Shown in pieces: positions 13,935-28,582 of a stretch of 64,000 bases of DNA (positions are counted from its first letter, which is position 1; each line of letters opens with the position of its first letter). The stretch is from an uncultured Lachnospiraceae bacterium (GTDB lineage: Bacteria; Bacillota; Clostridia; Lachnospirales; Lachnospiraceae). The DNA lies in NCBI GenBank assembly GCA_902789175.1, contig CADANF010000032.1, positions 1-64,000 of the forward strand, written 5' to 3'. Both the position numbers and the translations under genes were made by a program. The notes beneath the pieces were generated by a model. That model was not told where the DNA came from. It did not search any database and worked only from the letters and a program-made list of their open reading frames with translations.

Positions 13935-15818
13935 ATGTTTTTACCAATATCTAAAAAAGAAATGAAAGAAAGAGGCTGGGATACAGCTGATTTTATATAT
14001 GTGATCGGAGATGCTTATGTGGATCATTCTTCATTTGGACCGGCTATTATCAGCCGCACACTTGAGGCTCATGGTTATAAAGTAGCTATCATATCACAGC
14101 CGGATTATAAAGACTCTGCCAGCATCAGAGCCTTGGGAAAACCACGTCTTGGATTCCTTGTATCTGCCGGTAACATGGATTCAATGGTCAATCATTATAC
14201 AGTGAATAAAAAAAGAAGGCATGAGGATGCTTATACACCAGGCGGAAAAGCCGGAAAAAGACCGGATAATGCAACCATATGCTACTGCCAGATGATAAGA
14301 AAAGAGTTCGGAAATGATATGCCGATAATAATCGGCGGCATTGAAGCAAGCTTAAGACGTCTTGCTCATTATGATTATTGGGCAGATAAATATAAAAAGT
14401 CTATCCTTCTTGATTCAGGGGCAGATCTTTTAATATATGGAATGGGAGAGCTTGCAACAGTTGAAGTTGTAGATGCTCTTAATTCAGGAATAGCTATAAG
14501 AGATATAACTTATGTAGCAGGAACTGCATATAATGCAAGAAATCTTGATACAGTTTATGACTGTATCATGCTTCCTTCTTATGATGAATGCCTCGTAGAT
14601 AGATCAAAGTATGCTGAATCATTTAGGATACAGCATATGAATACTGACAGTATAAGTGGAAAAACTCTGGTTGAACAGTATGGGTCTCACAGATTTGTGA
14701 TACAGAATCCGCCAATGAGACCGCTTACTACAATGGAGTTAGATGATGTATATGAACTTCCTTATGAAAATAGATGGCACCCATCTTATGATAAATTAGG
14801 CGGAGTTCCTGCCTTTGGTGATATAAAGTTTTCACTTACTGCAAACCGCGGATGTTTTGGGGGATGTAGTTTCTGTGCGATAACATTTCATCAGGGAAGA
14901 GTATTACAGGCAAGATCTAAGGAATCTCTCCTTAAGGAAGCAAAATGGATGATAGAACAGCCTGATTTTAAGGGATACATCTATGATGTGGGTGGTCCTA
15001 CAGCGGACTTTGATCATCCAGCCTGCGAGAAACAAAAGAAATATGGTGTCTGTCAGAATAAACAGTGCCTTTATCCTGAGGTCTGCCCTAATATGAAGGT
15101 AGATCATAAAGGCTATGTAGAGGTCCTTCGGGAATTAAGAAAACTTCCGGGGGTTAAGAAGGTCTTTATAAGATCAGGTATAAGATTTGATTATGTTCTT
15201 AAGGATAGGGATGATACATTTCTCAGGGAGCTGATAAAGTATCATATCTCGGGACAGCTTCGTGTGGCACCGGAACATGTAACTGATCATGTGCTCGATC
15301 TTATGGGAAAGCCAAGGTGCGAGGTATATAATAGATTCTGTAAGAAATTTGAAAAGATTAATAAGGAATTAAAGAAAGATCAGTATCTTGTTCCTTATCT
15401 TATTTCTTCTCATCCGGGATCTGATCTAAATGATGCCATTGCTCTTGCGGAAGCTATAAGGGATATGGGATATATGCCGGAACAGGTGCAGGATTTCTAT
15501 CCAACTCCGTCCACAGTATCTACGGTCATGTATTACACTGGTCTTGATCCTAGAACCATGAAGAAGGTAAGAAGTGCTCATGATATGCATGAGAAGGCTA
15601 TGCAAAGAGCTCTTCTTCAATATAAAAAACCTGAGAATTATGAATTGGTAAAAGAAGCTTTGATAAAGGCAAAAAGACAGGATCTTATTGGATTTGATGA
15701 AAAATGTCTCATCCCTCCAAGAAAGATTAATTTTCAGGAAAAAAAGCCTAAAAGAATAGAGAGAAGTATCGAGAGAAAAGGCAAAAAAAAACCAGCAAAA
15801 TATAAGAAAAAAGTATGA
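13935..15818 (+). CDS. YgiQ-family radical SAM protein
   Basis: A 627-residue protein beginning FLPISKKEMKERGWD, as usual for YgiQ. The radical SAM motif is NRGCFGGCSFCAI (C-x3-C-x2-C), preceded by a cobalamin-binding-like N-terminal domain with GGIEASLRRLAHYDYW. A second cysteine cluster (CEKQKKYGVCQNKQC and VCPN) follows. The basic C-terminal tail (KKPKRIERSIERKGKKKPAKYKKK) suggests RNA or ribosome contact. The reaction is not established for the family. The gene is monocistronic, with terminators on both sides. Confidence 0.92.
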   Translation: MFLPISKKEMKERGWDTADFIYVIGDAYVDHSSFGPAIISRTLEAHGYKVAIISQPDYKDSASIRALGKPRLGFLVSAGNMDSMVNHYTVNKKRRHEDAYTPGGKAGKRPDNATICYCQMIRKEFGNDMPIIIGGIEASLRRLAHYDYWADKYKKSILLDSGADLLIYGMGELATVEVVDALNSGIAIRDITYVAGTAYNARNLDTVYDCIMLPSYDECLVDRSKYAESFRIQHMNTDSISGKTLVEQYGSHRFVIQNPPMRPLTTMELDDVYELPYENRWHPSYDKLGGVPAFGDIKFSLTANRGCFGGCSFCAITFHQGRVLQARSKESLLKEAKWMIEQPDFKGYIYDVGGPTADFDHPACEKQKKYGVCQNKQCLYPEVCPNMKVDHKGYVEVLRELRKLPGVKKVFIRSGIRFDYVLKDRDDTFLRELIKYHISGQLRVAPEHVTDHVLDLMGKPRCEVYNRFCKKFEKINKELKKDQYLVPYLISSHPGSDLNDAIALAEAIRDMGYMPEQVQDFYPTPSTVSTVMYYTGLDPRTMKKVRSAHDMHEKAMQRALLQYKKPENYELVKEALIKAKRQDLIGFDEKCLIPPRKINFQEKKPKRIERSIERKGKKKPAKYKKKV

Positions 15819-16354: not shown

Positions 16355-18409
16355 ATGGCTAAATACGACGCAGAAAAGTATAAAGATCAACTTTTATTCC
16401 AGGCATTTGATTCGATGCCTGGTGGAGTTTTGGTGTATAAAGCCAATGAAGAGGAAGAGATTCTCTATGCGAATCATGCAACCCTTACTATATTTGAATG
16501 CAGTTCTTTTGATGAATTTATGGAATTATCTGAGGGATCATTTAAAAAAATGGTCCACCCCGATGATATCGAATTAGTTGAAAGTGATATAGAAAACCAG
16601 ATCATCACGGGTATCGATAAATTTGATCATGTAAATTACAGGATAATCACTAAAAATAAAAAAGTACGTTACCTGGAGGATTATGGAAAGTTAGTCGAAC
16701 ATCCTTCTTTAGGGCTTTTATATTATGTTTTCCTTGTTGATACAGATATTAAATATCTTACTTATGATGTGGATAAATTAACAGGACTGCCTGGGCAGAA
16801 GCGATTTAATGAATATGCTTCCAGGCTTTTAAAATTAATGTCCCTTAATAAAGATGCACCAAAGATGGTGTATATCTATTTAAATATCAGCCGCTTTAAG
16901 ATAATAAATATTAAATATGGCATCGAACGTGGAGACAGGATTTTAAAAGAAGTAGCTTCAATCTTAAAAGATGTATTTATAAATGATTATATTTCCAGAT
17001 TTGCCGATGATCATTTTGCCCTTCTTACAGTGAATGAGCGTATCAAAGAAAAGATAGAAGAAATAAGCAGACGTATAATGGATATCGAGCTTATAGGAAA
17101 TACTATCGAATTAAAAATCGGGGCATTTCTTGTAAGAGATTATAATGAAAAAGCAGAGATTTCTGTAGGCTATGCCCAGATTGCCTGCGAAAGCATTAAA
17201 TATCAGGCTGGGGAACATTTTGTATATTATACTGATGAACTTGGACGTAAGATCAATCTTCAGTATTATGTTGTAAATAATATAGAAATGGCTATAGAAA
17301 AAGGTTATATTAAAGTTTTCTATCAGCCGGTAATAAGAGCACTTACGGGTGAATTATGTGGCATGGAAGCCCTCGCCAGGTGGATAGATCCGGAAGTAGG
17401 ATTCCTTAATCCTTACGATTTCATATCCGCCCTCGAAGATGCAAGGCTGATCCATAAACTTGACAGGTATATTGTTAAAGAAGTATGCGAGAATTACAAG
17501 AGATGTGTAGAAAATGATATCCCTCTCGTTCCGGTATCATTTAATCTATCCAGACTTGACTTTGTTTTGACAGATATAAGAAAAGAGATTGATGATCTTG
17601 CAGATTCCTATAATGTGCCTAAAAAAATGCTGAATATTGAGATTACTGAAAGTATGTTTATGGAGGATGCAAGCCGCATTAAAGAGCAGATCGATGGCTT
17701 CCATGAATCTGGATATAATGTCTGGATGGATGATTTTGGAAGTGGTTATTCATCTCTTAATGTTCTTAAGGATTTTGACTTTGATGAATTAAAGATAGAT
17801 ATGGTCTTTCTTTCTAACTTCAATAAGAAGTCAAAGAATATCATCGAATCAGCAGTAATGCTGGCTAAAAGAATAAATATACAGACTTTGGCTGAAGGGG
17901 TTGAAACCAGGGAACAGTTTGAGTTTTTAAGAAGTATAGGCTGTGAGAAGATACAGGGCTATTATTTCAGCAAGCCATCTCCTTATGAAGAGATAATTAA
18001 GAACTGTAAGGAGAAGGGGGCTGAGGTAGAAAAATGGTCAGAGGCGGAGTATTATGACAAGGTTGGTAAAGTGAATTTCCTTACAGATAATCCGCTTGCT
18101 ATTTCAGAAGATGATGGAAAGCATTTCAGGATACTCTTTGCAAATGAGCTTTTTAAAGAGGTTTTAGCCAGCAGTGGAGTTTTATCTGTTGAAGAAGCTG
18201 AGAAGAATATGAATAAACCGGATAATCCAATCCATAAATTATTACGTGAATTCGCGAAAAAGGTTCAGGGAAATGAGGATAAGGAACTGACTTATCCTTA
18301 TGGAAAAGAATATATGGAGCTCAAGGCCCGGGTCATTGCTGAATATAACGGAAGATATATGTATGCTTTAAGCATTAATAATATTACTAGTATAACGTTC
18401 GCAAAATAA
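16355..18409 (+). CDS. PAS-GGDEF(degenerate)-EAL cyclic-di-GMP phosphodiesterase
   Basis: A 684-residue protein: PAS domain (about 10-130), GGDEF domain (about 140-295), EAL domain (about 305-550) and a C-terminal PAS-like region. The GGDEF motif reads RFADDHF (217-221), so cyclase activity is not expected. The EAL domain keeps GMEALARW (EAL 338-340), NIEITES, DDFGSGYSS (Asp459, Asp460), LKIDMVF, AEGVET and QGYYFSKP, indicating active c-di-GMP hydrolysis. No membrane segment is present. The last seven residues, TSITFAK, and the stop codon are supplied by the inserted hairpin repeat at 18387, so the native C-terminus may be altered. Confidence 0.9.
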   Translation: MAKYDAEKYKDQLLFQAFDSMPGGVLVYKANEEEEILYANHATLTIFECSSFDEFMELSEGSFKKMVHPDDIELVESDIENQIITGIDKFDHVNYRIITKNKKVRYLEDYGKLVEHPSLGLLYYVFLVDTDIKYLTYDVDKLTGLPGQKRFNEYASRLLKLMSLNKDAPKMVYIYLNISRFKIINIKYGIERGDRILKEVASILKDVFINDYISRFADDHFALLTVNERIKEKIEEISRRIMDIELIGNTIELKIGAFLVRDYNEKAEISVGYAQIACESIKYQAGEHFVYYTDELGRKINLQYYVVNNIEMAIEKGYIKVFYQPVIRALTGELCGMEALARWIDPEVGFLNPYDFISALEDARLIHKLDRYIVKEVCENYKRCVENDIPLVPVSFNLSRLDFVLTDIRKEIDDLADSYNVPKKMLNIEITESMFMEDASRIKEQIDGFHESGYNVWMDDFGSGYSSLNVLKDFDFDELKIDMVFLSNFNKKSKNIIESAVMLAKRINIQTLAEGVETREQFEFLRSIGCEKIQGYYFSKPSPYEEIIKNCKEKGAEVEKWSEAEYYDKVGKVNFLTDNPLAISEDDGKHFRILFANELFKEVLASSGVLSVEEAEKNMNKPDNPIHKLLREFAKKVQGNEDKELTYPYGKEYMELKARVIAEYNGRYMYALSINNITSITFAK

Positions 18410-18536
18410 CTGGACTAATGCGCTGAAAGCTTGCTCGAGAGTGCGTCTCAAAAAACGTAGGCGTAGCAGGCTACGCTGAGGATTTTTGAGGCGTGCTATC
18501 GATGTAAGCAGGCAAGCATTCGGTCCATTATACTAG
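18387..18536 (-). repeat. Hairpin repeat element, copy 1 (150 bp, longest form)
   Basis: Bounded by CTAGTATAA and TTATACTAG. The two halves can pair over most of the length around a GCGTAGC-AG-GCTACGC tip. It is in reverse orientation relative to the copies at 29630 and 53962 and retains an internal arm that both of those lack. It supplies the end of the upstream EAL-protein gene. It resembles a miniature inverted-repeat transposable element with no coding capacity. Confidence 0.88.
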
Positions 18537-18572
18537 GAAAGTAAATTTGAAAGATAAGATATGATCATAATC

Positions 18573-18639
18573 AAACCTGTCAGATGAGGTTATCAGATAT
18601 TATTTACTAAAATCTGATGCCTATGACAGGTTTTTTCGT
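18573..18639 (+). terminator. Intrinsic terminator downstream of the repeat
   Basis: AAACCTGTCA pairs with TGACAGGTTT, with an inner ATCAGAT/ATCTGAT stem, followed by six T residues. It is probably the original terminator of the PAS-EAL operon. The rest of the gap to 18746 holds only A/T-rich promoter-like sequence. Confidence 0.8.
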
Positions 18640-18699
18640 TTCTTATATGGTTGTTTATTTTATTTATTTTTATTATAATAAGTAGGTATGTAAAAAAAT

Positions 18700-18714
18700 G
18701 GGTATAGTCTACCC
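18700..18714 (+). promoter_or_regulatory. Promoter-region palindrome GGGTA-N5-TACCC
   Basis: A perfect five-base inverted repeat encloses a TATAGT that could serve as a -10 element, 33 bases before the SbcD-like start. The -35 is poor (TAAGTA). Since the following genes run without a gap into suf genes, a regulator such as an Rrf2/IscR-type protein could bind here. This is a weak inference. Confidence 0.4.
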
Positions 18715-18746
18715 GTGCATTTATTAGGAATTAAGAAGGATTAAAT

Positions 18747-19805
18747 ATGAGGTTTATTCATACATCAGATATATGTCTTGGGGCTGTTCCTGATGAAGGC
18801 CGCGATTGGAGTCAGGACCGTACAAGAGAAATAGAAGAAGCATTTGATCGGATAATATCAGACTGTAATGAGAAACATGTAGATCTTCTCCTTATTGCTG
18901 GTAATCTTTTTAATGCTCCACCAACTTTTGATGATCTGGTCAAAGTGGATGCAAAGCTTCAGACACTTGAACATACAAGGACTATAATAATCTCCGGTGA
19001 TAGAGATTATATGGAACCAACCAGTGACTGGGCGCATTTTAAATTTAGATCAAAGAGCGCAGTTCTTCCTGCAGAGAAGACTACAAATGCGTTTCTTAAG
19101 AATATAAATACTTGTATTACAGGATATAGCTATGGTAAGAATGAGCATATCGAAAATGTGATCGGAAATATCAATCCAGGTAAGCCAGGGGCTATCAATA
19201 TCTTACTTGGCTGTGGTGGTGATGCGGAGCATATGCCATTTAACAGGGAAAATATAGCAAGAAAAGGTTTTCATTACATTGCTCTTGGTCATTCAACCAA
19301 TCCGGTACATATATTAAAGAATCGTATGGCTTATTCCGGTTCACCGGAGCCACTTGGACCAAATGACAGAGGAAATCATGGTTATATTCTTGGAGAGATT
19401 GATGAGAAAGGCACAAGGATCAAATGGTGCCCTATAGCTAAGAGAAGTTATATCAATTTCCAGTTTGATCTTAGCTCGGATCTTAAGAACGAAGAAGTTG
19501 AAAAGATGGCTGAGGATAAGATGCTTAAACTTGGTAAAGAGAATATTTATACCATTGTTTTAAAAGGTTTTACAAGTGATGAAAAAAAACCGGATTTTTC
19601 AAGGATCCAGAAGAGGTTCAATGTATATAGGATAGTTGATAAGACTATTTCAAGAAAGAAAGTTGAACAGATGGAGGCTGATAACGAAAAAAATCTTGTT
19701 GGAAGATTCATCAGTGAAGTAAATGATAGTTATACAATAGACACAAGGATCAGAGAAAAAGCTTTAAGATATGGTCTTGAAGCACTGATCAAGGCGGGAG
19801 AATAA
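18747..19805 (+). CDS. SbcD/YhaO-like metallophosphoesterase homolog with degenerate metal site
   Basis: A 352-residue protein with the SbcD/Mre11 fold order, beginning MRFIHTSDICLG. The usual metal ligands are altered throughout: D-x-H is DIC (8-10), GD-x-x-D is GNLFN (52-56), GNHD is GDRD (84-87), the expected histidine before the fifth motif is in GCGG (155-158), and GH-x-H is GHST (181-184). Phosphodiesterase activity is therefore doubtful. The frame is intact and is followed two bases later by an SbcC/YhaN-like gene, so the pair is maintained. A structural or signalling role is possible. Confidence 0.75.
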   Translation: MRFIHTSDICLGAVPDEGRDWSQDRTREIEEAFDRIISDCNEKHVDLLLIAGNLFNAPPTFDDLVKVDAKLQTLEHTRTIIISGDRDYMEPTSDWAHFKFRSKSAVLPAEKTTNAFLKNINTCITGYSYGKNEHIENVIGNINPGKPGAINILLGCGGDAEHMPFNRENIARKGFHYIALGHSTNPVHILKNRMAYSGSPEPLGPNDRGNHGYILGEIDEKGTRIKWCPIAKRSYINFQFDLSSDLKNEEVEKMAEDKMLKLGKENIYTIVLKGFTSDEKKPDFSRIQKRFNVYRIVDKTISRKKVEQMEADNEKNLVGRFISEVNDSYTIDTRIREKALRYGLEALIKAGE

Positions 19806-19807
19806 AT

Positions 19808-21484
19808 ATGTATCTTACAAAGCTCTTACTTAGAGATTTTGGAAAATTTCATAATGAAGAGATAGTTCTTAAGCCTGGTCTTAATGTAGTTCATGGTGGA
19901 AAAGATTCGGGCAAATCAACTGTAGGTTCATTTATCAAAGGAATGATGTTCGGTATTCCCAAGGATGATAAGAAAGATAGCGAATATGATCTCTATAAAC
20001 CAGAAAAGGGCTCTTATTATTCAGGAGCTGCTTATCTGAAAAAAGATGGTACTAATTATCTGTTAGATAGATCATTCCTGGATGGAGCAAAGAAAATGTC
20101 TGTTCTTGATGTTAATTCAGGAAGAGATATAACTTTAAAAGACAGTAATACTATAACAGGTACTCTTATTGAAACTGATAAGAATACTTATCGCGATACA
20201 ATGTATATCGGAGATAACAGAGAAGGAGCAGCTAAGGAATTAAATGATTATCTTAGTAGCATGATCCTTACAGGTTCATCTGATATTGATCTAAATAAGG
20301 CAATAGCACATCTTAAGGCTGAGAAAGAAAAGCATAATTCTAGAGCACTTTCTCATAAGGTAAGTGAGCTTGCTGAAAAAATAGAAGAATATGATGATGT
20401 AGATCCTGGACTGGCTGAAAATAAGCAGGCTCTTAAAGATCTGACTGAGAAATTTTCTATGGAGGCTCAGAGAAGAAAAAGGGTGGCAAGACAGCTGGTG
20501 GAAAATGAAGATGGCTCAGTTTCTTATAAAGATGATGAAGTGATCGATAAAGAAATTGAAGCTATGAATGGCAAAAAAGCTGAAGATGAGGTAGATATTG
20601 AGGAGACTAAAGAGACTCCTTTAACTGACAGAATGCCTGTGATACTTCTTACAGGTATCCTGGTAGTACTTGCTATAGCAGAGATTGTTAATCTGCTTCC
20701 TTTTGATGATGCTATTAAAAAGCTTTTTGTCATATTTACTATAGGCCTCGTAATAATCACTATTGTAGATGGACTTAGAAGAAAAGGATTCTTTAATACG
20801 GATGATATAGAAACTCCGGATGAAGATGAATTTAATAAAGTCCTAGAAGAGATTCAGGAAGAAAGAGATCAGCAGGAAGAAACAGAATTCGATATGACTT
20901 TTGCAAAGGAATATCAGGAGAAGAAACAGAAATTAGCTGAGGAAAAAGAAAAACTCTTAGAGAGAAAGGCTTCCAGAGATAAACTTAAAGCAGAGCAGGC
21001 TCTTGTATTTAAAAAGAAAGCAGAGCTTGAGGATGAAGTTAAGAGTATCAAGCTTGCTATAAACACCATTGAAGCTTTATCAAGAAGTTATATGGAAAGA
21101 GCAGGAAGAGACATAGTTCCTTATCTTTCAGAATATATTCCGGTTCTTACCAATGATCTTTTTGTTGGTATTTCTTCAGACAGTAATGGAAAGCTTATTG
21201 CAGAAGGACATGGCGAAAATATGCCTGTTTCATCTCTTTCAGAAGAGATGGCTGCAAAGGTTTACACAGCTGTAAGACTTAGTATTGCTAAGCATTCTGA
21301 TAATGAGAGGCTTCCGCTTATCATAGATAATGCTATTAATTTTAAAAATCAAAAGGATACAGAAGCACTTCTTTCAGTGCTTTCAGGTATAGATACTGAG
21401 CAGATAGTAATTCTTACTTCAGAGGATACAGTTTCAAATATCCTGGATGATATGAAAATTTCTTATAATTATATTGATCTGTAG
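19808..21484 (+). CDS. SbcC/YhaN-like membrane-anchored AAA ATPase, degenerate
   Basis: A 558-residue protein. The N-terminal part MYLTKLLLRDFGKFHNEEI and Walker A GGKDSGKST (Lys36) fit Rad50/SbcC/YhaN proteins. Coiled coils (about 165-270 and 335-435) flank two membrane segments (276-296 and 304-321), as in YhaN. The C-terminal signature is LSEEMAAKVY in place of LS-G-G-T-x-E-Q, and Walker B is LPLIIDN (Asp507, Asn508) in place of ILDD. ATP hydrolysis may be lost while binding persists. It partners the SbcD-like protein just upstream and ends 10 bases before an amidohydrolase gene. Confidence 0.75.
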   Translation: MYLTKLLLRDFGKFHNEEIVLKPGLNVVHGGKDSGKSTVGSFIKGMMFGIPKDDKKDSEYDLYKPEKGSYYSGAAYLKKDGTNYLLDRSFLDGAKKMSVLDVNSGRDITLKDSNTITGTLIETDKNTYRDTMYIGDNREGAAKELNDYLSSMILTGSSDIDLNKAIAHLKAEKEKHNSRALSHKVSELAEKIEEYDDVDPGLAENKQALKDLTEKFSMEAQRRKRVARQLVENEDGSVSYKDDEVIDKEIEAMNGKKAEDEVDIEETKETPLTDRMPVILLTGILVVLAIAEIVNLLPFDDAIKKLFVIFTIGLVIITIVDGLRRKGFFNTDDIETPDEDEFNKVLEEIQEERDQQEETEFDMTFAKEYQEKKQKLAEEKEKLLERKASRDKLKAEQALVFKKKAELEDEVKSIKLAINTIEALSRSYMERAGRDIVPYLSEYIPVLTNDLFVGISSDSNGKLIAEGHGENMPVSSLSEEMAAKVYTAVRLSIAKHSDNERLPLIIDNAINFKNQKDTEALLSVLSGIDTEQIVILTSEDTVSNILDDMKISYNYIDL

Positions 21485-21494
21485 GAGTTTTTAA

Positions 21495-22436
21495 ATGGAA
21501 TTAAAGCATAACATTAACAAATCCGGTCCTAATCTTCCAGGAACGGATTTTATTAAAGAGAAAATCATAGGAAAAAGGTATGTTAATACAAAAGTGGTAG
21601 ATTTCCATGTGCATATCTTTCCTGATGAAATTGCAGAAAGAACAATCAGTAAACTTGAAGATCTTAGTGGGATTGGACCATATACAAGGGGAACAGCGGC
21701 AGATTTAAAGGCTTCCATGGAGAAATCAGGGACAGATATCTCTGTGGTGCTTCCTATTGTTACAAATCCTGATAAGACATCTCATATCAACCAGGTAGCT
21801 GCCCGTACGAATGAATCATTTAATGAAACGGGGATCATTTCCATTGGAGGAATTCATCCTGATAACTCTAATTATAAGGATATCATTAAAGAGATAAAGA
21901 GTCTTGGACTTAAGGGTATTAAACTTCATCCGGATTATTACGGTGTGAGACTTGATGATATCAGACTTGAGAGAATAATAGATGAGGCTTCAAATCAGGG
22001 GTTATTTATAGTAACTCATGCAGGTCCTGATATTGGACTCTATCCACCTGCGTTAAGCCCGGTAGATAGCATTGTAAAGGTAATAAAGGATGTTCATCCT
22101 GAAAAATTCATCCTGGCCCATATGGGAGGATGGATGGTATGGAATGAAGCCTATGATAAATTAAGAGAAACCAATGTTTATCTTGATACTTCATTCTCAA
22201 TCGGGGAAATCAACTGGAAGCAGTTATCTAAGGTTAGATATGGTTTCCATATGATGAATGATGACTTATTTGTAAAGATGGTCAAAGGATTTGGCAGTGA
22301 GAGGATTCTCTTTGCCACTGATTCTCCTTGGTCAGATCAGAAGGAATATATTGAAAGGATCAGTATCATGCCTCTTTCTGATGAAGAGAAAGATAATATT
22401 TTTTATAAGAATGCATATAAGCTGTTACAGCTTTAA
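21495..22436 (+). CDS. Amidohydrolase-family metal-dependent hydrolase
   Basis: A 313-residue TIM-barrel hydrolase of the amidohydrolase-2/TatD-like type. Metal ligands appear in VVDFHVHIFPD (His38, His40), KLHPDYYG, VTHAGPD, LAHMGG and FATDSPW. An extra 34-residue N-terminal segment precedes the barrel compared with most relatives, but AGGAG before the ATG at 21495 supports this start. Substrate unknown. It lies 18 bases before sufC with no terminator or promoter evident between, so it is probably transcribed with the suf genes. Confidence 0.8.
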   Translation: MELKHNINKSGPNLPGTDFIKEKIIGKRYVNTKVVDFHVHIFPDEIAERTISKLEDLSGIGPYTRGTAADLKASMEKSGTDISVVLPIVTNPDKTSHINQVAARTNESFNETGIISIGGIHPDNSNYKDIIKEIKSLGLKGIKLHPDYYGVRLDDIRLERIIDEASNQGLFIVTHAGPDIGLYPPALSPVDSIVKVIKDVHPEKFILAHMGGWMVWNEAYDKLRETNVYLDTSFSIGEINWKQLSKVRYGFHMMNDDLFVKMVKGFGSERILFATDSPWSDQKEYIERISIMPLSDEEKDNIFYKNAYKLLQL

Positions 22437-22454
22437 AATAAATGGAGGTACATT

Positions 22455-23198
22455 ATGCCACAGTTGTTAGAAATAAAAGGGCTGACTGTTAACGTGAGCG
22501 ACAAAGAGATTCTTCACGGAGTTGATCTTAGTGTCAACAAAGGTGAAGTTCATGTGTTGATGGGACCAAATGGTGCCGGAAAGTCAACACTTGGCTACGC
22601 TTTAATGGGCAATCCTAATTATTCAGTAACGGGAGGTTCAATAACCTTTAACGGCAAAGATATCTTGGAAGAGAACGCAGCAGAGCGCGCAAAAGACGGA
22701 CTGTTCCTTTCATTCCAGAATCCTATTGAAGTTCCCGGTATCACACTTTCAAATTTTATCAGAAGTTCTGTAGATCAGAAAACTGGTAAACGTCAAAGAC
22801 TCTGGGACTTCAGAAAGAAGTTGGAAAAAGAGATGAAGGTCCTTAAGATGGATCCTTCATATGCTGATAGAGATCTTAATGTAGGTTTTTCAGGCGGAGA
22901 GAAGAAGAAGGCAGAGATCCTTCAGATGCTTATGTTAAAGCCTGATCTTGCAATCCTTGATGAAACTGACTCAGGACTTGATGTTGATGCAGTAAGAACT
23001 GTATCAGACGGTGTTGAAGAATTCATGAAGGAGAAAGAAGGAGCACTTATCATCATCACACATAGTACAAGAATCCTTGAGTCACTTCATGTTGATCATA
23101 CTCATATTCTTGTTAATGGAAAGATAGTTGCTTCAGGAGATGGTTCTCTTGTAGATGAAATCAATGAAAATGGATTTGAGAAATATTTAGGTAAGTAA
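22455..23198 (+). CDS. sufC: SufC, ATPase of the SufBCD Fe-S scaffold
   Basis: A 247-residue ABC-type ATPase with Walker A GPNGAGKSTLG, signature FSGGEKKKAEILQ and Walker B LAILDETDSGLDVDA, which is the SufC-specific form. It powers conformational change of the SufB/SufD scaffold during iron-sulfur cluster assembly in the cytosol. GGAGG precedes the ATG. It is the first of five suf genes in the order C-B-D-S-U, which is common in Firmicutes. Confidence 0.97.
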   Translation: MPQLLEIKGLTVNVSDKEILHGVDLSVNKGEVHVLMGPNGAGKSTLGYALMGNPNYSVTGGSITFNGKDILEENAAERAKDGLFLSFQNPIEVPGITLSNFIRSSVDQKTGKRQRLWDFRKKLEKEMKVLKMDPSYADRDLNVGFSGGEKKKAEILQMLMLKPDLAILDETDSGLDVDAVRTVSDGVEEFMKEKEGALIIITHSTRILESLHVDHTHILVNGKIVASGDGSLVDEINENGFEKYLGK

Positions 23199-23230
23199 TC
23201 TTACTTATAGAGATTTTTTAGGAGACTGTA

Positions 23231-24640
23231 ATGAAAGAAAAGACTAAAGTCGAAGATATTTCAAGAGAGTTCTATGATTTCAGATATGAGGAAAAGGACT
23301 ACTACAAGGTAGATGAAGGACTTACAGAAGAGATCGTAGAACAGATTTCAAAAGAAAAAAATGATCCTGAATGGATGCGTGAATTCAGACTGAAATCTCT
23401 TGAAGAATACCGTAAGATAAGAGTTCCTCAGTGGGGACCTTCTATAGATGGTCTTAACATGGATAATATCGTTACCTATGTAAGACCAAAGAATAATAAA
23501 ATGAGCGCTGACTGGAGTGAGGTTCCGGAAGAGATCAAGGAAACATTTGAAAAACTTGGTATTCCTAAGGCTGAAAGAGAAAGTCTTGCAGGAGTTGGAG
23601 CTCAGTACGATTCAGAACTGGTTTATCATAATGTCAGGGAAGAAGTTGCTGCCCAGGGTGTTATTTATACTGATCTTGAGTCGGCAATGCACGGACCTTA
23701 TGAAGAGATGATAAGGGAACATTTTATGAAGCTTGTGCCACCACAGGATCATAAGTTTGCCGCTCTTCATGGAGCAGTATGGTCAGGTGGATCATTTGTA
23801 TATGTACCAAAGGGAGTTTCTGTTGAAATTCCACTTCAGTCATATTTCAGACTTAACGCACCTGGTGCAGGTCAGTTTGAGCATACACTTATAATAGTTG
23901 ATGAAGGAGCAGATCTGCATTTCATAGAGGGATGCTCTGCGCCTAAGTATAATGTTGCAAATCTTCATGCCGGATGTGTTGAGCTTTTTGTAGGAAAAAA
24001 TGCGAAACTTCGTTATTCAACTATTGAGAACTGGTCAAAGAATATGTATAACCTGAATACAAAGCGTGCCGTCGTTGAAGAAGGCGGTAAGATGGAGTGG
24101 GTATCAGGTTCATTTGGTTCTCATGTTTCCTATCTTTATCCTATGACAATCCTTAAGGGTGATAACTCTCAGATGGAATATACTGGAATCACTTTTGCAG
24201 GAAATGGACAGAATCTTGATACTGGTATGAAGGTAGTTCATACAGGTAAAGATACAAAGTCTGTTGTAAGTGCTAAGTCTATTTCTAAGGATGGAGGTAT
24301 CAGTACATTTAGAAGTGCTGTTGTTGTAAATAAAAATGCTAAAGGTGCAAAATCTTCAGTAGACTGTGCATCTCTTATGTTAGATGATATTTCTCGTTCA
24401 GATACTATACCATCGATGGATGTAAGAACTGATGACGCTGATATCGGACATGAGGCAAAGATTGGACGTATCAGTGATGAAGCTGTATTTTATCTTATGT
24501 CTCGCGGAATTTCAGAAGCGGACGCAAGAACTATGATAGTCAGTGGATTCGCAGATAATGTATCTAAGGAACTTCCTCTTGAATATGCTGTTGAGATGAA
24601 TAATCTCATACGTATCGAGATGAAGGGCAGCATAGGTTAA
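23231..24640 (+). CDS. sufB: SufB, Fe-S cluster scaffold
   Basis: A 469-residue protein with the SufB hallmarks: SVEIPLQSYFRLNAPGAGQFEHTLI, EGCSAPKYN with the conserved Cys, and the C-terminal ADIGHEAKIGRISDEAVFYLMSRG. It forms the SufBC2D complex and assembles the nascent cluster. The length is standard. It starts 32 bases after sufC with TAGGAGAC before the ATG and is followed after 11 bases by sufD. Confidence 0.97.
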   Translation: MKEKTKVEDISREFYDFRYEEKDYYKVDEGLTEEIVEQISKEKNDPEWMREFRLKSLEEYRKIRVPQWGPSIDGLNMDNIVTYVRPKNNKMSADWSEVPEEIKETFEKLGIPKAERESLAGVGAQYDSELVYHNVREEVAAQGVIYTDLESAMHGPYEEMIREHFMKLVPPQDHKFAALHGAVWSGGSFVYVPKGVSVEIPLQSYFRLNAPGAGQFEHTLIIVDEGADLHFIEGCSAPKYNVANLHAGCVELFVGKNAKLRYSTIENWSKNMYNLNTKRAVVEEGGKMEWVSGSFGSHVSYLYPMTILKGDNSQMEYTGITFAGNGQNLDTGMKVVHTGKDTKSVVSAKSISKDGGISTFRSAVVVNKNAKGAKSSVDCASLMLDDISRSDTIPSMDVRTDDADIGHEAKIGRISDEAVFYLMSRGISEADARTMIVSGFADNVSKELPLEYAVEMNNLIRIEMKGSIG

Positions 24641-24651
24641 GGAGGTATAAG

Positions 24652-25752
24652 ATGAGCGAATTAAGAGAGATCAGCGTAAATCATTTACCTTCACCAACAT
24701 GGAACTGGCTTAAGGTAAATGAAGCCTATATCAAAGTTCCATCAGAGGCTGTAAAAGGAAATGAACTGATCGAAGCAGGAAAAGATATAAAAAGAAATGT
24801 ATCTTTAGATCAGGAAAGATTTTTATCATTTGAAGCGGGATTAGGTGAAGAATTCAGTCAGTTAACTGAAAGCTTCAAAATAGCAAAAGAAAGCTTTAAG
24901 ATAGAAAATGATACTAAGGTTAAAGAACCTGTAAGAATAGATATAAGTTACCTGGAAAACAGCTTTGCTTTCAACAGCTATGAGGCTCATGTTGGAGATG
25001 ATTCAGAATGTACCTTCATTGTAAATCATATTATCTGTGAAGGTTCAGATATCAAAGAAGCTGCATGTGACATGAGATTTATCATTGGTAAAAGATCTAC
25101 AGTTAAACTGGTTCAGATACATAGCTTTAATGATGAGATGAAGTTCTATAACAATGTTTCAGCAGAATGTGCTGAGGATGCAAGATTTGAAGTGATCCAT
25201 CTTGAGCTCGCCTCAGCGGGGATATTCGAAGGACTTTGCTGTAATCTTCTTGGAGACAGAAGTTCTCTTAGGATTGATACTGCATATCTTGGAAAGAATG
25301 AAGATATCATCGATTTTAATTATGTTGCAAGACATAGAGGTAAAGAAACAAAGAGTAATATCTATTGTAACGGAGTACTTAAGAATAATGCCAGTAAGGT
25401 ATTCCGTGGCACAATTGACTTTATCAAGGGATGTGCCGGTGCTGTAGGTGATGAGAAGGAAGATGTTCTGCTTATTGATGAAGATGTAGTTAATAAGACT
25501 GTTCCGCTTATTCTTTGTGCAGAAGAAGATGTAGAAGGTACACACGGTGCAACTATAGGAAAATTAAGCGATGAAGTACTTTTCTATTTTATGGCCAGGG
25601 GAATCGATGAAGAGAATGCTTATAAACTTATGATCGATGGCAGAATCCGGGAAGTTGCTTCTAAAATTGAAGATGAAAAGACCAGGGAGTATATATTTGA
25701 AACTCTTTTAAAAAATGAAGATGAAGTAAGCGAGGAGGAAGAGGATGAGTAG
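24652..25752 (+). CDS. sufD: SufD, partner subunit of the SufBCD complex
   Basis: A 366-residue SufB/SufD-family protein with a shorter N-terminal part. The C-terminal beta-helix ends VEGTHGATIGKLSDEVLFYFMARGIDEENAY, where the histidine is the SufD residue implicated in cluster building and iron delivery. A highly acidic tail (DEVSEEEEDE) overlaps the sufS start by eight bases, indicating translational coupling. AAGGAGG precedes the ATG. Confidence 0.93.
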   Translation: MSELREISVNHLPSPTWNWLKVNEAYIKVPSEAVKGNELIEAGKDIKRNVSLDQERFLSFEAGLGEEFSQLTESFKIAKESFKIENDTKVKEPVRIDISYLENSFAFNSYEAHVGDDSECTFIVNHIICEGSDIKEAACDMRFIIGKRSTVKLVQIHSFNDEMKFYNNVSAECAEDARFEVIHLELASAGIFEGLCCNLLGDRSSLRIDTAYLGKNEDIIDFNYVARHRGKETKSNIYCNGVLKNNASKVFRGTIDFIKGCAGAVGDEKEDVLLIDEDVVNKTVPLILCAEEDVEGTHGATIGKLSDEVLFYFMARGIDEENAYKLMIDGRIREVASKIEDEKTREYIFETLLKNEDEVSEEEEDE

Positions 25753-26971
25753 ACTTGATGTTAATGCTATAAGAAAAGATTTTCCATTTTTTGCATCCAC
25801 TGATCTGGCTTATTTAGATAATTCTGCTACTACTCAGAGACCAAAAGTAGTATTAGATGCAATAAGTGATTATTATTATCATTCAAACGCAAATCCATTT
25901 AGAGGGCTTTATCAGCTTTCAATCGATGCAACTGAAAAATATGAGCATGCAAGACATACTGTTGCACAGTTTATAAATGCATCTTCTGATAAAGAGATCA
26001 TTTTTACAAGAAATGCATCAGAAAGCCTTAATCTCGTAGCTTACAGTCTTGGCAATCTTCTCCTTAATGAAGGGGATGGAATAATAACTACTATAGTTGA
26101 GCACCATAGTAATATGCTTCCATGGATGGAAGCAGCAAAGAGAAATAAGGCTGAACTTAAATTTTTCTACTGCGAAAAAGATGGATCGTTTGATATAGAA
26201 AAGTTGAAAACATTAATAACACCAAAGACAAAGATAGTTGCAATGACAGCCATGTCTAATATATTTGGCAGACTTAATGATATGAGTAAGGTGGCAGAAG
26301 TGGTTCACTCTGCGGGTGCATATCTTGTGGTTGATGGAGCCCAGAGCGTTCCTCATTCTGTGACTGACGTAAAGAAAATGAATTGTGATTTTCTTGCATT
26401 TTCAGGCCATAAGTTACTTGGACCATTTGGAATTGGTGTTTTATATGGTAAGGAAGCTTTACTCGAAAAAATGCCTCCTTTCCTTACAGGTGGAGAAATG
26501 ATAGAGTCAGTAGATATTGACTATGTTTCTTATGCTGAGCTTCCTCATAAATTTGAGGCAGGAACAGTTAATGCTGGTGGAGCCATTGGCCTTGAAGCTG
26601 CTATTAATTATATAAAAAGTATAGGTCTTCAGGAAATTGAAGAAAGAGAAAGGGAACTCAGCCATCTTGCTTTTGCTAAATTTAAGGAGATCCCTCATGT
26701 TACGCTTCTTGGAGCAGATGATCCAGATGAACATCATGGTATCTTTACATTTAAGATAGATGGTGTACATCCACATGATGTGGCAGCTATAATGGCTGAG
26801 GATAAGGTTGCTATCAGAGCAGGACATCACTGCGCTGAACCTCTTCATACCTATATGGATGGCAGACCAACAACCAGAGCAAGCATAATGTTTTATAATA
26901 CAGAAGAAGAAATAGAAAGACTGATCGAAAGTGTCTCATCAGTCAGGAGGAAAATGGGCTATGGAGAATAG
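25745..26971 (+). CDS. sufS: SufS-type cysteine desulfurase
   Basis: A 408-residue group II cysteine desulfurase. YLDNSATTQRPKVV opens the fold; FSGHKLLGPFGIGVLYGK holds the PLP lysine; RAGHHCAEPLH holds the catalytic cysteine. It removes sulfur from cysteine and passes it to SufU for Fe-S assembly. The start is within GAGGAAGAGGATG overlapping sufD, and its end overlaps sufU by 11 bases. Confidence 0.96.
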   Translation: MSRLDVNAIRKDFPFFASTDLAYLDNSATTQRPKVVLDAISDYYYHSNANPFRGLYQLSIDATEKYEHARHTVAQFINASSDKEIIFTRNASESLNLVAYSLGNLLLNEGDGIITTIVEHHSNMLPWMEAAKRNKAELKFFYCEKDGSFDIEKLKTLITPKTKIVAMTAMSNIFGRLNDMSKVAEVVHSAGAYLVVDGAQSVPHSVTDVKKMNCDFLAFSGHKLLGPFGIGVLYGKEALLEKMPPFLTGGEMIESVDIDYVSYAELPHKFEAGTVNAGGAIGLEAAINYIKSIGLQEIEERERELSHLAFAKFKEIPHVTLLGADDPDEHHGIFTFKIDGVHPHDVAAIMAEDKVAIRAGHHCAEPLHTYMDGRPTTRASIMFYNTEEEIERLIESVSSVRRKMGYGE

Positions 26972-27422
26972 AACATTCTATAATGAAATACTTACGGAAC
27001 ATAATATGAATCCGGAACATAAACATAAGCTTATGTCTTATAATAAAGAGATGCGAGGAGTTAATCCTTCATGTGGAGATAAGATAACGCTTCAGCTTAA
27101 TGTTTCTGATGATGGAATTATAGAAGACGGCTCATTTATAGGAGATGGATGTGCCATATCACAGGCCAGCGCTGATATGATGCTGGATCTTGTTATTGGA
27201 AGAAGCGTTGAAGAGGCGCTTTCACTTAAAGATACTTTCCTTAAGATGATAAAAGGAAAGGTAAGTGATGAGGAGCTTGAGATGCTTGAAGAGGCATCGG
27301 CTCTTCAGGATATTGCACATATGCCGTCAAGAGTTAAATGTGCTGTACTTGGATGGCACACTCTTGAGGAGATTTTTAATGAAGAAAATCAGGGAAAAGA
27401 TGTTTCTACTGAGGATCAGTAA
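26961..27422 (+). CDS. sufU: SufU, zinc-dependent sulfurtransferase for SufS
   Basis: A 153-residue protein with the three SufU cysteines in NPSCGD, GDGCAIS and RVKCAVLGW, and the ~20-residue insertion that separates SufU from IscU. It accepts sulfur from SufS through a zinc-bound cysteine. The ATG at 26961 inside the end of sufS is chosen because AGGAGG lies 10 bases before it. It is the last gene before a terminator. Confidence 0.94.
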   Translation: MENRTFYNEILTEHNMNPEHKHKLMSYNKEMRGVNPSCGDKITLQLNVSDDGIIEDGSFIGDGCAISQASADMMLDLVIGRSVEEALSLKDTFLKMIKGKVSDEELEMLEEASALQDIAHMPSRVKCAVLGWHTLEEIFNEENQGKDVSTEDQ

Positions 27423-27453
27423 TAATAATTGCAAGGCCGCATGTAATGCTATG

Positions 27454-27492
27454 TACCCTCTTTACTGGACAACCAGTAAGGAGGGTATTTTT
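27454..27492 (+). terminator. Intrinsic terminator of the suf operon
   Basis: TACCCTCTTTACTGG pairs with CCAGTAAGGAGGGTA around ACAA, followed by TTTTTAT. Confidence 0.9.
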
Positions 27493-27530
27493 ATTGCACA
27501 AGGTAGCCGGGATTAAGGTGTATTTAAGCA

Positions 27531-27560
27531 TTGACATACTTTGTTATAGTATGTTACTAT
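27531..27560 (+). promoter_or_regulatory. cysK promoter with internal dyad
   Basis: TTGACA at 27531-27536 and TACTAT at 27555-27560 are separated by 18 bases. A perfect inverted repeat ACATACT-N7-AGTATGT (27534-27554) spans the -35 and the spacer, a position where a bound regulator would block RNA polymerase. Confidence 0.7.
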
Positions 27561-27576
27561 ATCAGAAAAATTTATA

Positions 27577-27595
27577 ACCCACTAAACCGGTAGGT
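27577..27595 (+). promoter_or_regulatory. Candidate operator downstream of the cysK start site
   Basis: ACCCAC-N7-GTAGGT is a dyad with one mismatch, placed about 10-30 bases after the predicted transcription start. The form is reminiscent of Rrf2/CymR-type operators of cysteine genes, but no matching regulator is encoded nearby. Confidence 0.4.
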
Positions 27596-27646
27596 AAGAT
27601 GGGCTATAAAGATAAACAATACCAAAAGGTTATGGAGGAAGAAATT

Positions 27647-28582
27647 ATGGCAAAGATTTATGAAAATGCATCAGAACTTATTGGACATACACCACTTCTT
27701 CATTTAGCGGCTTATCAGGAGAAGGAAGGATTAAAGGAAGCAAATATCTTTGCAAAAGTGGAATATTTTAATCCGGCAGGTTCTGTGAAGGACAGAGTTG
27801 CGCTTTCTATGATCGAGGAAGCAGAAAAAAGTGGAAAGTTAAAACCTGGTGCAACTTTAATTGAGCCAACCAGTGGAAATACAGGTATTGGAATCGCGGC
27901 AGTAGCAGCGACAAAGGGCTATAAAGTAATAATCACTCTTCCAGAAACCATGTCAGTTGAAAGAAGAAAACTTATGAAGGCCTATGGAGCTCGCCTTGTT
28001 CTTACAGAAGGAGCAAAGGGAATGAAGGGAGCCATAGCAAAGGCTGAAGAATTAAATAAAGAGATAGAGGGATCTCTTATACTTGGTCAGTTTGATAATC
28101 CAGCTAATTCCCTTGCGCATTATAAGACAACAGGACCTGAGATCTGGGAAGATACAGAGGGTAAGGTAGATATATTTGTTGCTGGTGTTGGCACAGGCGG
28201 AACAATAACAGGTGCTGGAAAATATCTTAAAGAGAAAAATCCGGATGTAAAAGTAATTGCAGTTGAACCATTATCAAGTCCGGTACTTTCAAAAGGAGAA
28301 GCAGGACCACATAAGATTCAGGGAATCGGAGCAGGGTTTGTGCCAAAGGTTCTTGATACAGAAATATATGATGAAGTTTTACCGGTATCAAATGAGGACG
28401 CATTTGAAACAGGAAGAAAGATAGCGGCGTACGAGGGGATACTTGTAGGAATATCATCAGGAGCAGCACTTTTTGCAGCTTCAGAGATTGCCAGGAGACC
28501 AGAAAATAAAGGAAAGAATATAGTAGTTCTCCTTCCTGATTCAGGAGACAGATATCTTTCAACAACATTGTTTGGGGAGTGA
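27647..28582 (+). CDS. cysK: Cysteine synthase (O-acetylserine sulfhydrylase)
   Basis: A 311-residue PLP enzyme. The lysine is in [21 protein letters not shown] and [15 protein letters not shown] bind substrate and PLP phosphate. It makes cysteine from O-acetylserine and sulfide. ATG at 27647 with GGAGGAAG is chosen over an upstream in-frame ATG at 27599, which lacks a good ribosome site. It is followed after four bases by a LysR regulator, so both are probably under the promoter at 27531. Cysteine made here feeds SufS. Confidence 0.95.

Follow-up and report, generated by a model that had tools for sequence, protein, structure and literature searches.

The window analysed here, 64,000 nucleotides of contig CADANF010000032.1 (positions 1 to 64,000 of the forward strand; NCBI GenBank assembly GCA_902789175.1) from an uncultured Lachnospiraceae bacterium, carries two adjacent genes upstream of SUF genes, and their products, here called D and C, are related to the Mre11-type nuclease and the Rad50-type ATPase. 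It is proposed that D and C probably form a non-catalytic, membrane-anchored descendant of a YhaO/YhaN-type complex that has taken on a new stoichiometric role, both proteins appearing from their sequences to be catalytically inactive. A DNA-repair nuclease and ATPase have here lost motifs on both sides, yet they are retained as a pair.

18747 to 19805, + strand: D, putative Mre11/SbcD/YhaO-like pseudo-nuclease, 352 amino acids, two of eight ligand positions kept (sequence relationship, motif scoring).
19808 to 21484, + strand: C, putative Rad50/YhaN-like pseudo-ATPase with a transmembrane hairpin, 558 amino acids (motifs, profiles, transmembrane prediction).

A sequence-only reading of this DNA had described an SbcD/SbcC-like pair in open, well-initiated frames two bases apart, with catalytic residues substituted in both subunits. 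The frames are as described, both open, both with an ATG start and separated by 2 bases, and the quoted substitutions are borne out by the window translation: D reads DIC, GNLFN, GDRD, GCGG and GHST, and C has an intact Walker A (GGKDSGKST) together with LSEEM and IIDN. The two-metal site of Mre11/SbcD is built from the ligands D, H, D, N, H, H, H and H, a list backed by the other Lachnospiraceae genera, where 127 of 147 rows have all eight; in the alignment to its relatives, D of the window keeps only D8 and H182 (2/8). The family motifs quoted for comparison in that reading need amendment in detail, intact relatives of D actually carrying GDLFH-type and GNHD motifs; the substitutions themselves stand. 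The GNHD histidine, position 86 in D, is equated by motif alignment with H84 of the E. coli protein, and according to PMC6265447 H84Q renders E. coli SbcCD nuclease-deficient. C of the window keeps four of seven ATPase positions, namely the Walker A Lys, the Walker A Ser/Thr, the signature Ser and the first Walker B Asp; the Q-loop Gln, the signature Gly and the second Walker B acid are replaced by Asp, Glu and Asn, respectively, and the D-loop Asp is likewise lost.

The kinship of both proteins is nevertheless readily detected. A D profile of 53 rows, among them intact relatives, hits structures of Mre11 (4tug, E 6e-25), and D of the window alone matches Mre11 and sbcd models at about 1e-9. 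Its scores against NCBIfam sbcd (37.7 and 25.8 bits in two scans) lie below the cut-off of 77.65, a shortfall that is not specific to catalytic loss because the intact relatives L120 (65.1 bits) and L124 (62.3 bits) fall short too; Pfam Metallophos gives 20.9 bits, below its cut-off of 21.5. The C profile matches Rad50 at residues 1-103 and 396-558, the head being divided into two halves by a coiled coil. Two hydrophobic transmembrane segments are predicted in C (residues 276-294 and 299-317), and two such segments are predicted in 51 of 53 genus rows; no Cys, and hence no zinc-hook CxxC, occurs anywhere in the 558-residue translation. C is short, has a transmembrane hairpin and lacks Cys, and is therefore nearer to YhaN than to a zinc-hook SbcC. 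At 37.6 bits it passes AAA_27, which we take to be a family built on YhaN; the SbcC locus in this genome passes as well, and the family is matched in 13 of 14 control genomes. D and C stand side by side with a transmembrane hairpin in C, as in a YhaO/YhaN-type pair; Bacillus YhaN has transmembrane segments, and Bacillus YhaO/YhaN may be the orthologs of D/C. The SbcD/SbcC label thus holds as to Mre11/Rad50 kinship and seems not to hold as to the closer type, the pair looking YhaO/YhaN-like and an SbcD/SbcC pair lying elsewhere in the genome. AlphaFold models of D and C made with only 4 alignment rows (mean predicted local distance difference test scores of 44.0 and 42.2) are too poor to use.

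Catalytic loss was scored over the eight metal ligands of D and the seven ATPase positions of C. The genus set comprises 54 rows from 54 of 56 ortholog-bearing genomes (G036 and G037, broken at contig ends, are left out; L148, presumed to belong to the genus, is counted with it), and in rows cut at contig ends (L101 and L148 for D, L110 for C) missing positions are scored as not kept. D keeps only 1-3 of its eight ligands in 54/54 rows, positions 53 and 86 being intact in 0/53. C keeps 0-5 of its seven positions: the Walker A Lys survives in 46/54 rows, the signature Gly or Ala in 5/54, the second Walker B Asp or Glu in 18/54 and the Q-loop Gln in 0/52. Walker A is lost as well in L081, L111, L112 and L114-L117, and outside the genus in L122; L102 has a shifted GKS. 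The alignment proposed by the sequence-only reading thus finds the substitutions recurring throughout an orthologous clade.

Strong purifying selection acts on both genes: by the Nei-Gojobori method, for genus pairs with synonymous divergence (dS) of 0.05-1, which share lineages and are not independent, the median ratio of non-synonymous to synonymous change (dN/dS) is 0.031 for D (16 pairs, range 0 to 0.155) and 0.047 for C (15 pairs, range 0.014 to 0.217), as the expectation of purifying selection in this clade had it. The corresponding values are 0.023 for SufB (28 pairs), 0.077 for SufC (33), 0.101 for SufD (7), 0.069 for SufS (3) and 0.166 for the neighbouring amidohydrolase (7). Even the pair L111/L115, which lacks Walker A, gives 0.046 for D and 0.053 for C. 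The loss of catalysis is thus not decay. That the genes are pseudogenes on the way out, as their degenerate catalytic motifs and the failure to find the pair in 3 of 61 genus genomes might suggest, has next to no probability given frames that are open and of normal length, the low dN/dS and the presence of newly conserved blocks; we reject it. The three genomes concerned are G021 (95% complete), G059 (97%) and G049 (80%). A D match occurs in 57 of the 61 and an ortholog in 56, the sole match in G059 being weak (E 4.6e-4) and of a secondary SbcD-like kind rather than an ortholog; C was found in two further genus genomes, G046 (partial) and G048.

In the wider family a D match is present in 201 of 299 genomes; the relatives named here are Lachnospiraceae assemblies, one of them from dairy-cattle duodenum. 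Of 199 matching genomes outside the genus, 147 were read, mainly the better-scoring ones, leaving 52 weaker or fragmentary matches; six of the rows read (L245, L248, L253-L255 and L257) are probably of a paralogous type, judged by eye. Eight of eight ligands are kept in 127 of these rows, seven in 4 and five or fewer in 16. Where both proteins could be scored (140 rows), both are intact in 123, D is dead beside C at 6-7/7 in 9, both are hurt in 5 (one of them, L250, with a split C frame), and C is hurt beside an intact D in 3, L138 and L189 among these having split C frames. These counts suggest that nuclease loss tends to precede ATPase loss. Dead nucleases seem to have arisen repeatedly in Lachnospiraceae: a family-wide live/dead label needs 10 changes, at least 6 of them forced by starred branches for the live group, on a quick tree with some long branches. 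The recurrence of a dead D in other genera hints that a non-nuclease role of YhaO/YhaN-type pairs may be older than the genus. Outside the clade that carries the C module described below, a dead D (at most 5/8 ligands) is seen in 13 rows, comprising L144, L196, L225, L236, L244, L247 and L261, all with C at 7/7, and L191, L226, L234, L250, L251 and L256; C keeps at least six of seven positions in 9 of the 11 such rows in which it was scored. In L226 (genome G162), D lies inside a 647-residue frame, and the fetched stretch yielded no separate C.

A second account would keep D an enzyme with displaced or rebuilt metal ligands, a case that the sequence-only reading had named as decisive against it. 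Of three conserved residues of D, C123 and H188 bear on it:

18864 to 18866, + strand: C40, Cys in 52/53 genus rows, 4/4 module-bearing sisters and 57/143 others.
19113 to 19115, + strand: C123, Cys in 53/53 genus rows, in L118-L120 and not in L122, and in 7/143 others.
19308 to 19310, + strand: H188, newly fixed His, four residues past the GHxH motif, in 53/53 genus rows, in L118-L120 and not in L122, and in 0/136 others.

A rebuilt centre could be drawn from D8, N53, D87, C123 and H188, of which D8 and D87 are kept, N53 is nearly fixed and C123 and H188 are invariant in the genus. Across the genus rows, six of the eight columns that once held ligands are highly variable, with entropies at the 55th to 97th percentile and no consistent replacement residue, D8 being invariant and position 53 nearly fixed as Asn; the zero entropy of the ligand columns in the intact set is a consequence of choosing 8-of-8 rows. 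In L120, moreover, the original site is complete and C123 and H188 are present as well, which marks them as additions; H188, which coexists there with all eight ligands, did not arise as a replacement. A still-active D of this kind is thus very improbable.

Beyond what the sequence-only reading had noticed are an added C module and the breadth of the SUF linkage. The least variable 30-residue window in the genus alignment of C is residues 211-240 (0.68 bits, where the genus mean is 1.40), and in intact relatives the same residues are among the more variable parts (3.00 bits). Its consensus, EAxRKRxARxLVENEDGxVxY, is followed by a conserved hairpin:

20420 to 20545, + strand: new juxtamembrane block of C, residues 205-246, containing EAQRRKRVARQLVENEDGSVSY (conservation, profile search).
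20621 to 20842, + strand: conserved transmembrane-hairpin block of C, residues 272-345, with the predicted segments at 276-294 and 299-317.

Profiles of these two blocks built from genus rows and run over 195 C rows at a threshold of 8 bits match 53/53 genus rows and, outside the genus (L148 being counted within it), only L118, L119, L120 and L122; L121 reaches 8.7 bits with the second profile (272-345). Among these rows the C module is restricted to the genus and four sister lineages. In a family search with a threshold of E 1e-4 it turns up in 7 of the 397 genomes, two of the own genus together with G100, G130, G189, G239 and G149; the G149 match, weak and within an unrelated 555-residue frame, was rejected as false. 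The own genome shows no convincing further copy (next match E 0.36) and no Pfam family matches the module (best E 0.61).

The probable order of these events can be read from L120 (genome G130), which combines the module, H188, C123, all eight nuclease ligands, the signature and Walker B, and in whose C the Q-loop Gln is the only one of the seven scored positions to be absent. In the D tree L120 joins the genus, L118 and L119 (Shimodaira-Hasegawa-like approximate likelihood ratio support 95), with L122 included too at 84; in the tree built from C after masking of the module it joins the whole module clade (99); and in a joint tree of 96 rows the genus (28 rows) forms one clade (90) nested after L122, L120, L119 and L118. 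The branching of L118-L122 differs between trees and the genus is not monophyletic in the masked C tree, so one to three losses inside the module clade are possible. In all three trees the sole member of that clade with a full nuclease site already carries the module, and it is therefore most likely, on these sequences, that the module arose before catalysis was lost. The stages coexist in living lineages, as intact pairs without the module, an intact nuclease with it (L120), dead pairs with it and dead pairs with it in a SUF context, which makes the order of new job first and old chemistry lost later testable.

DNA repair is covered by a separate locus in the own genome, since contig G000:C24 encodes a 404-residue SbcD that exceeds the curated cut-off and in which the usual motifs can be seen by eye; after it comes a 1072-residue frame that matches AAA_27 and is taken as SbcC. 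A second D-C-like pair (G000:C5; L268, 8198-11111) has intact motifs and two transmembrane segments and adjoins ATP synthase genes. This coexistence of SbcCD and the motif-intact G000:C5 pair with the dead one would allow the dead subunits to join either of them and damp it as a regulatory decoy; second D-like matches are listed in only part of the genus, and a new transmembrane module would not be called for, which leaves such a decoy highly improbable.

A DNA-repair ancestry is suggested by the literature, in which SbcE is SMC-like and acts in double-strand-break repair (PMC4205851), SsbA interacts with SbcE (PMC7031210), and yhaONM of B. pumilus is a putative repair cluster induced by peroxide, with yhaO and yhaN listed under lexA/SOS (PMC3896406). 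The same peroxide and SOS entries, the retained Mre11- and Rad50-type sequence relationship and the Walker A Lys in 46/54 genus rows would fit a complex that, by binding alone and without cutting, tethers DNA ends or the chromosome to the membrane. Such a tether is unlikely: C has lost both the signature motif and the Q-loop, through which Rad50 closes on ATP, one subclade (L111, L112, L114-L117) lacks Walker A too, and LexA-like boxes are no commoner upstream in the genus than a reversed control (5 against 7 of 52). The exact GAACN4GTTC occurs upstream in 0/52 genus rows, 0/4 module sisters and 3/142 others; with at most one mismatch it occurs in 5, 0 and 27, against 7, 0 and 15 for the reversed controls.

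D and C are followed on the same strand by an amidohydrolase gene, SUF genes and a hairpin, and two further features lie upstream of D:

21495 to 22436, + strand: Amidohydro_2 protein, 10 bp past C.
22455 to 23198, + strand: SufC, passing its NCBIfam cut-off.
23231 to 24640, + strand: SufB, passing its NCBIfam cut-off.
24652 to 25752, + strand: SufD, the best family, yet at 181.5 bits against a cut-off of 222.
25745 to 26971, + strand: SufS, passing its NCBIfam cut-off.
26961 to 27422, + strand: SufU, passing its NCBIfam cut-off.
27453 to 27488, + strand: terminator-like hairpin of 16 pairs, past SufU.
18573 to 18633, + strand: terminator-like AAACCTGTCA...TGACAGGTTT with a T run, upstream of D, found by eye and not listed by the scan.
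18698 to 18716, + strand: inverted repeat (GGGTA-N5-TACCC) upstream of D that recurs in L066 and L067.

The gaps between D and C, C and the amidohydrolase gene, and the latter and SufC are 2, 10 and 18 bp, and the inverted repeat is a possible candidate operator of a D-C-SUF operon. A promoter scan of 18300-28500 is uninformative, with 32 promoter-like sites against 33.7 expected; terminator-like sites over the same span number 11 against 4.8 expected, two weak + strand ones lying inside SufB and SufS. With linkage called by SufB and SufC at 60% identity or more, the pair heads the SUF operon, upstream of same-strand SUF genes within 6 kb, in 44 of the 51 genus loci with enough sequence, against 0 of 26 loci outside the genus (those of 147 that were long enough and examined); labels without the identity cut likewise place no SufB, SufC or SufD near these 26. 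An Amidohydro_2 gene accompanies the pair in 24/51 genus loci, and in L119 it does so without SUF.

Of the 61 genus genomes, 57 gave a SufB match and G012, G021, G045 and G059 did not; in G045 (69% complete) the contig ends in a SufB match adjoining the pair. In G021 and G059 the pair, SufB and SufC were all not found, and since the AtpD tree places these genomes apart, beside different pair-bearing relatives, this looks like two separate co-losses. AtpD was chosen as the placing marker since the gene at 13935-15818 upstream, a radical-SAM gene presumably of YgiQ-like type, matched at E 1e-100 in only 2/25 genus genomes tried, and in 3/5 sister-genus genomes tried. Co-expression with SUF hints weakly at service in Fe-S (iron-sulfur) supply or under SUF-inducing stresses. 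A more specific form, in which the Mn nuclease centre has given way to a metal or cluster site made up of C40, C123 and H188 of D and perhaps shared within a D dimer, while the C module serves as a docking site for SufBC2D or passes clusters on to membrane clients and the complex acts as a membrane-bound SUF accessory, is decidedly unlikely.

The proposal of a non-catalytic, membrane-bound complex kept by selection, already made from the sequence alone, is supported by these results. D and C would still assemble as Mre11 and Rad50 do, the transmembrane hairpin of C would hold the complex at the membrane, the C module together with the new residues of D would bind a partner, and the complex would act as a membrane scaffold or adaptor by binding, not as a nuclease. 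Several observations weigh against it. The Walker A Lys is kept in most genus rows, so ATP binding may persist; the invariant H188 keeps the displaced-ligand case from full closure; and a tree of C built with masking of the module does not recover the genus as a single clade. Co-expression may be all there is to the SUF link: 7 of 51 genus loci of the pair are without it, a hurt pair is retained by the sisters G100 and G189, in which a search for SufC at E 1e-60 found none, G012 (84% complete) has the pair and no SufB was found there, and G049 (80% complete) has a SufB piece and no pair. Each co-loss in G021 and G059 may be a single deletion of neighbouring genes, and the AtpD tree also puts G239, of another genus, inside the genus.

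Pairs outside the module clade can have other neighbours: in 16 of 123 loci with 700 bases downstream, the pair lies just upstream of a class A penicillin-binding protein (blastp to four of these proteins, Pfam checked for those four), namely in L121, L125, L127, L128, L132, L136, L137 and L141 and in parts of eight shorter loci. D is dead in a single one of these loci, L234; the arrangement occurs in 0/51 genus loci and 0/4 module sisters.

Among the literature matches listed, no title or abstract concerned an inactive SbcD/YhaO pair or a SUF-linked one, which leaves room for a report in print. Among the closest known systems is YhaO/YhaN (SbcE) of Bacillus, reportedly treated by Krishnamurthy et al. 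in 2010, with which the window pair shares an Mre11-like protein beside a Rad50/SMC-like ATPase; it differs in the loss of nuclease and ATPase motifs, the added conserved module and the SUF operon. With SbcCD/Mre11-Rad50 it shares profile matches to Mre11 and to both Rad50 head halves, and it differs in keeping only 1-3 of 8 metal ligands in the genus and in having a transmembrane hairpin instead of a zinc-hook Cys. The intact pairs of other Lachnospiraceae (for example L121 and L124) are orthologous neighbouring genes with the same transmembrane hairpin, but have 8/8 ligands, an LSxGT-type signature, no module and no SUF link. Vps29 and the polymerase B subunits are inactive scaffolds of the metallophosphoesterase fold and use the superfamily fold without catalysis, as D would; unlike them, the pair described here is a nuclease and an ATPase in which both partners have lost motifs and to which a membrane module has been added.

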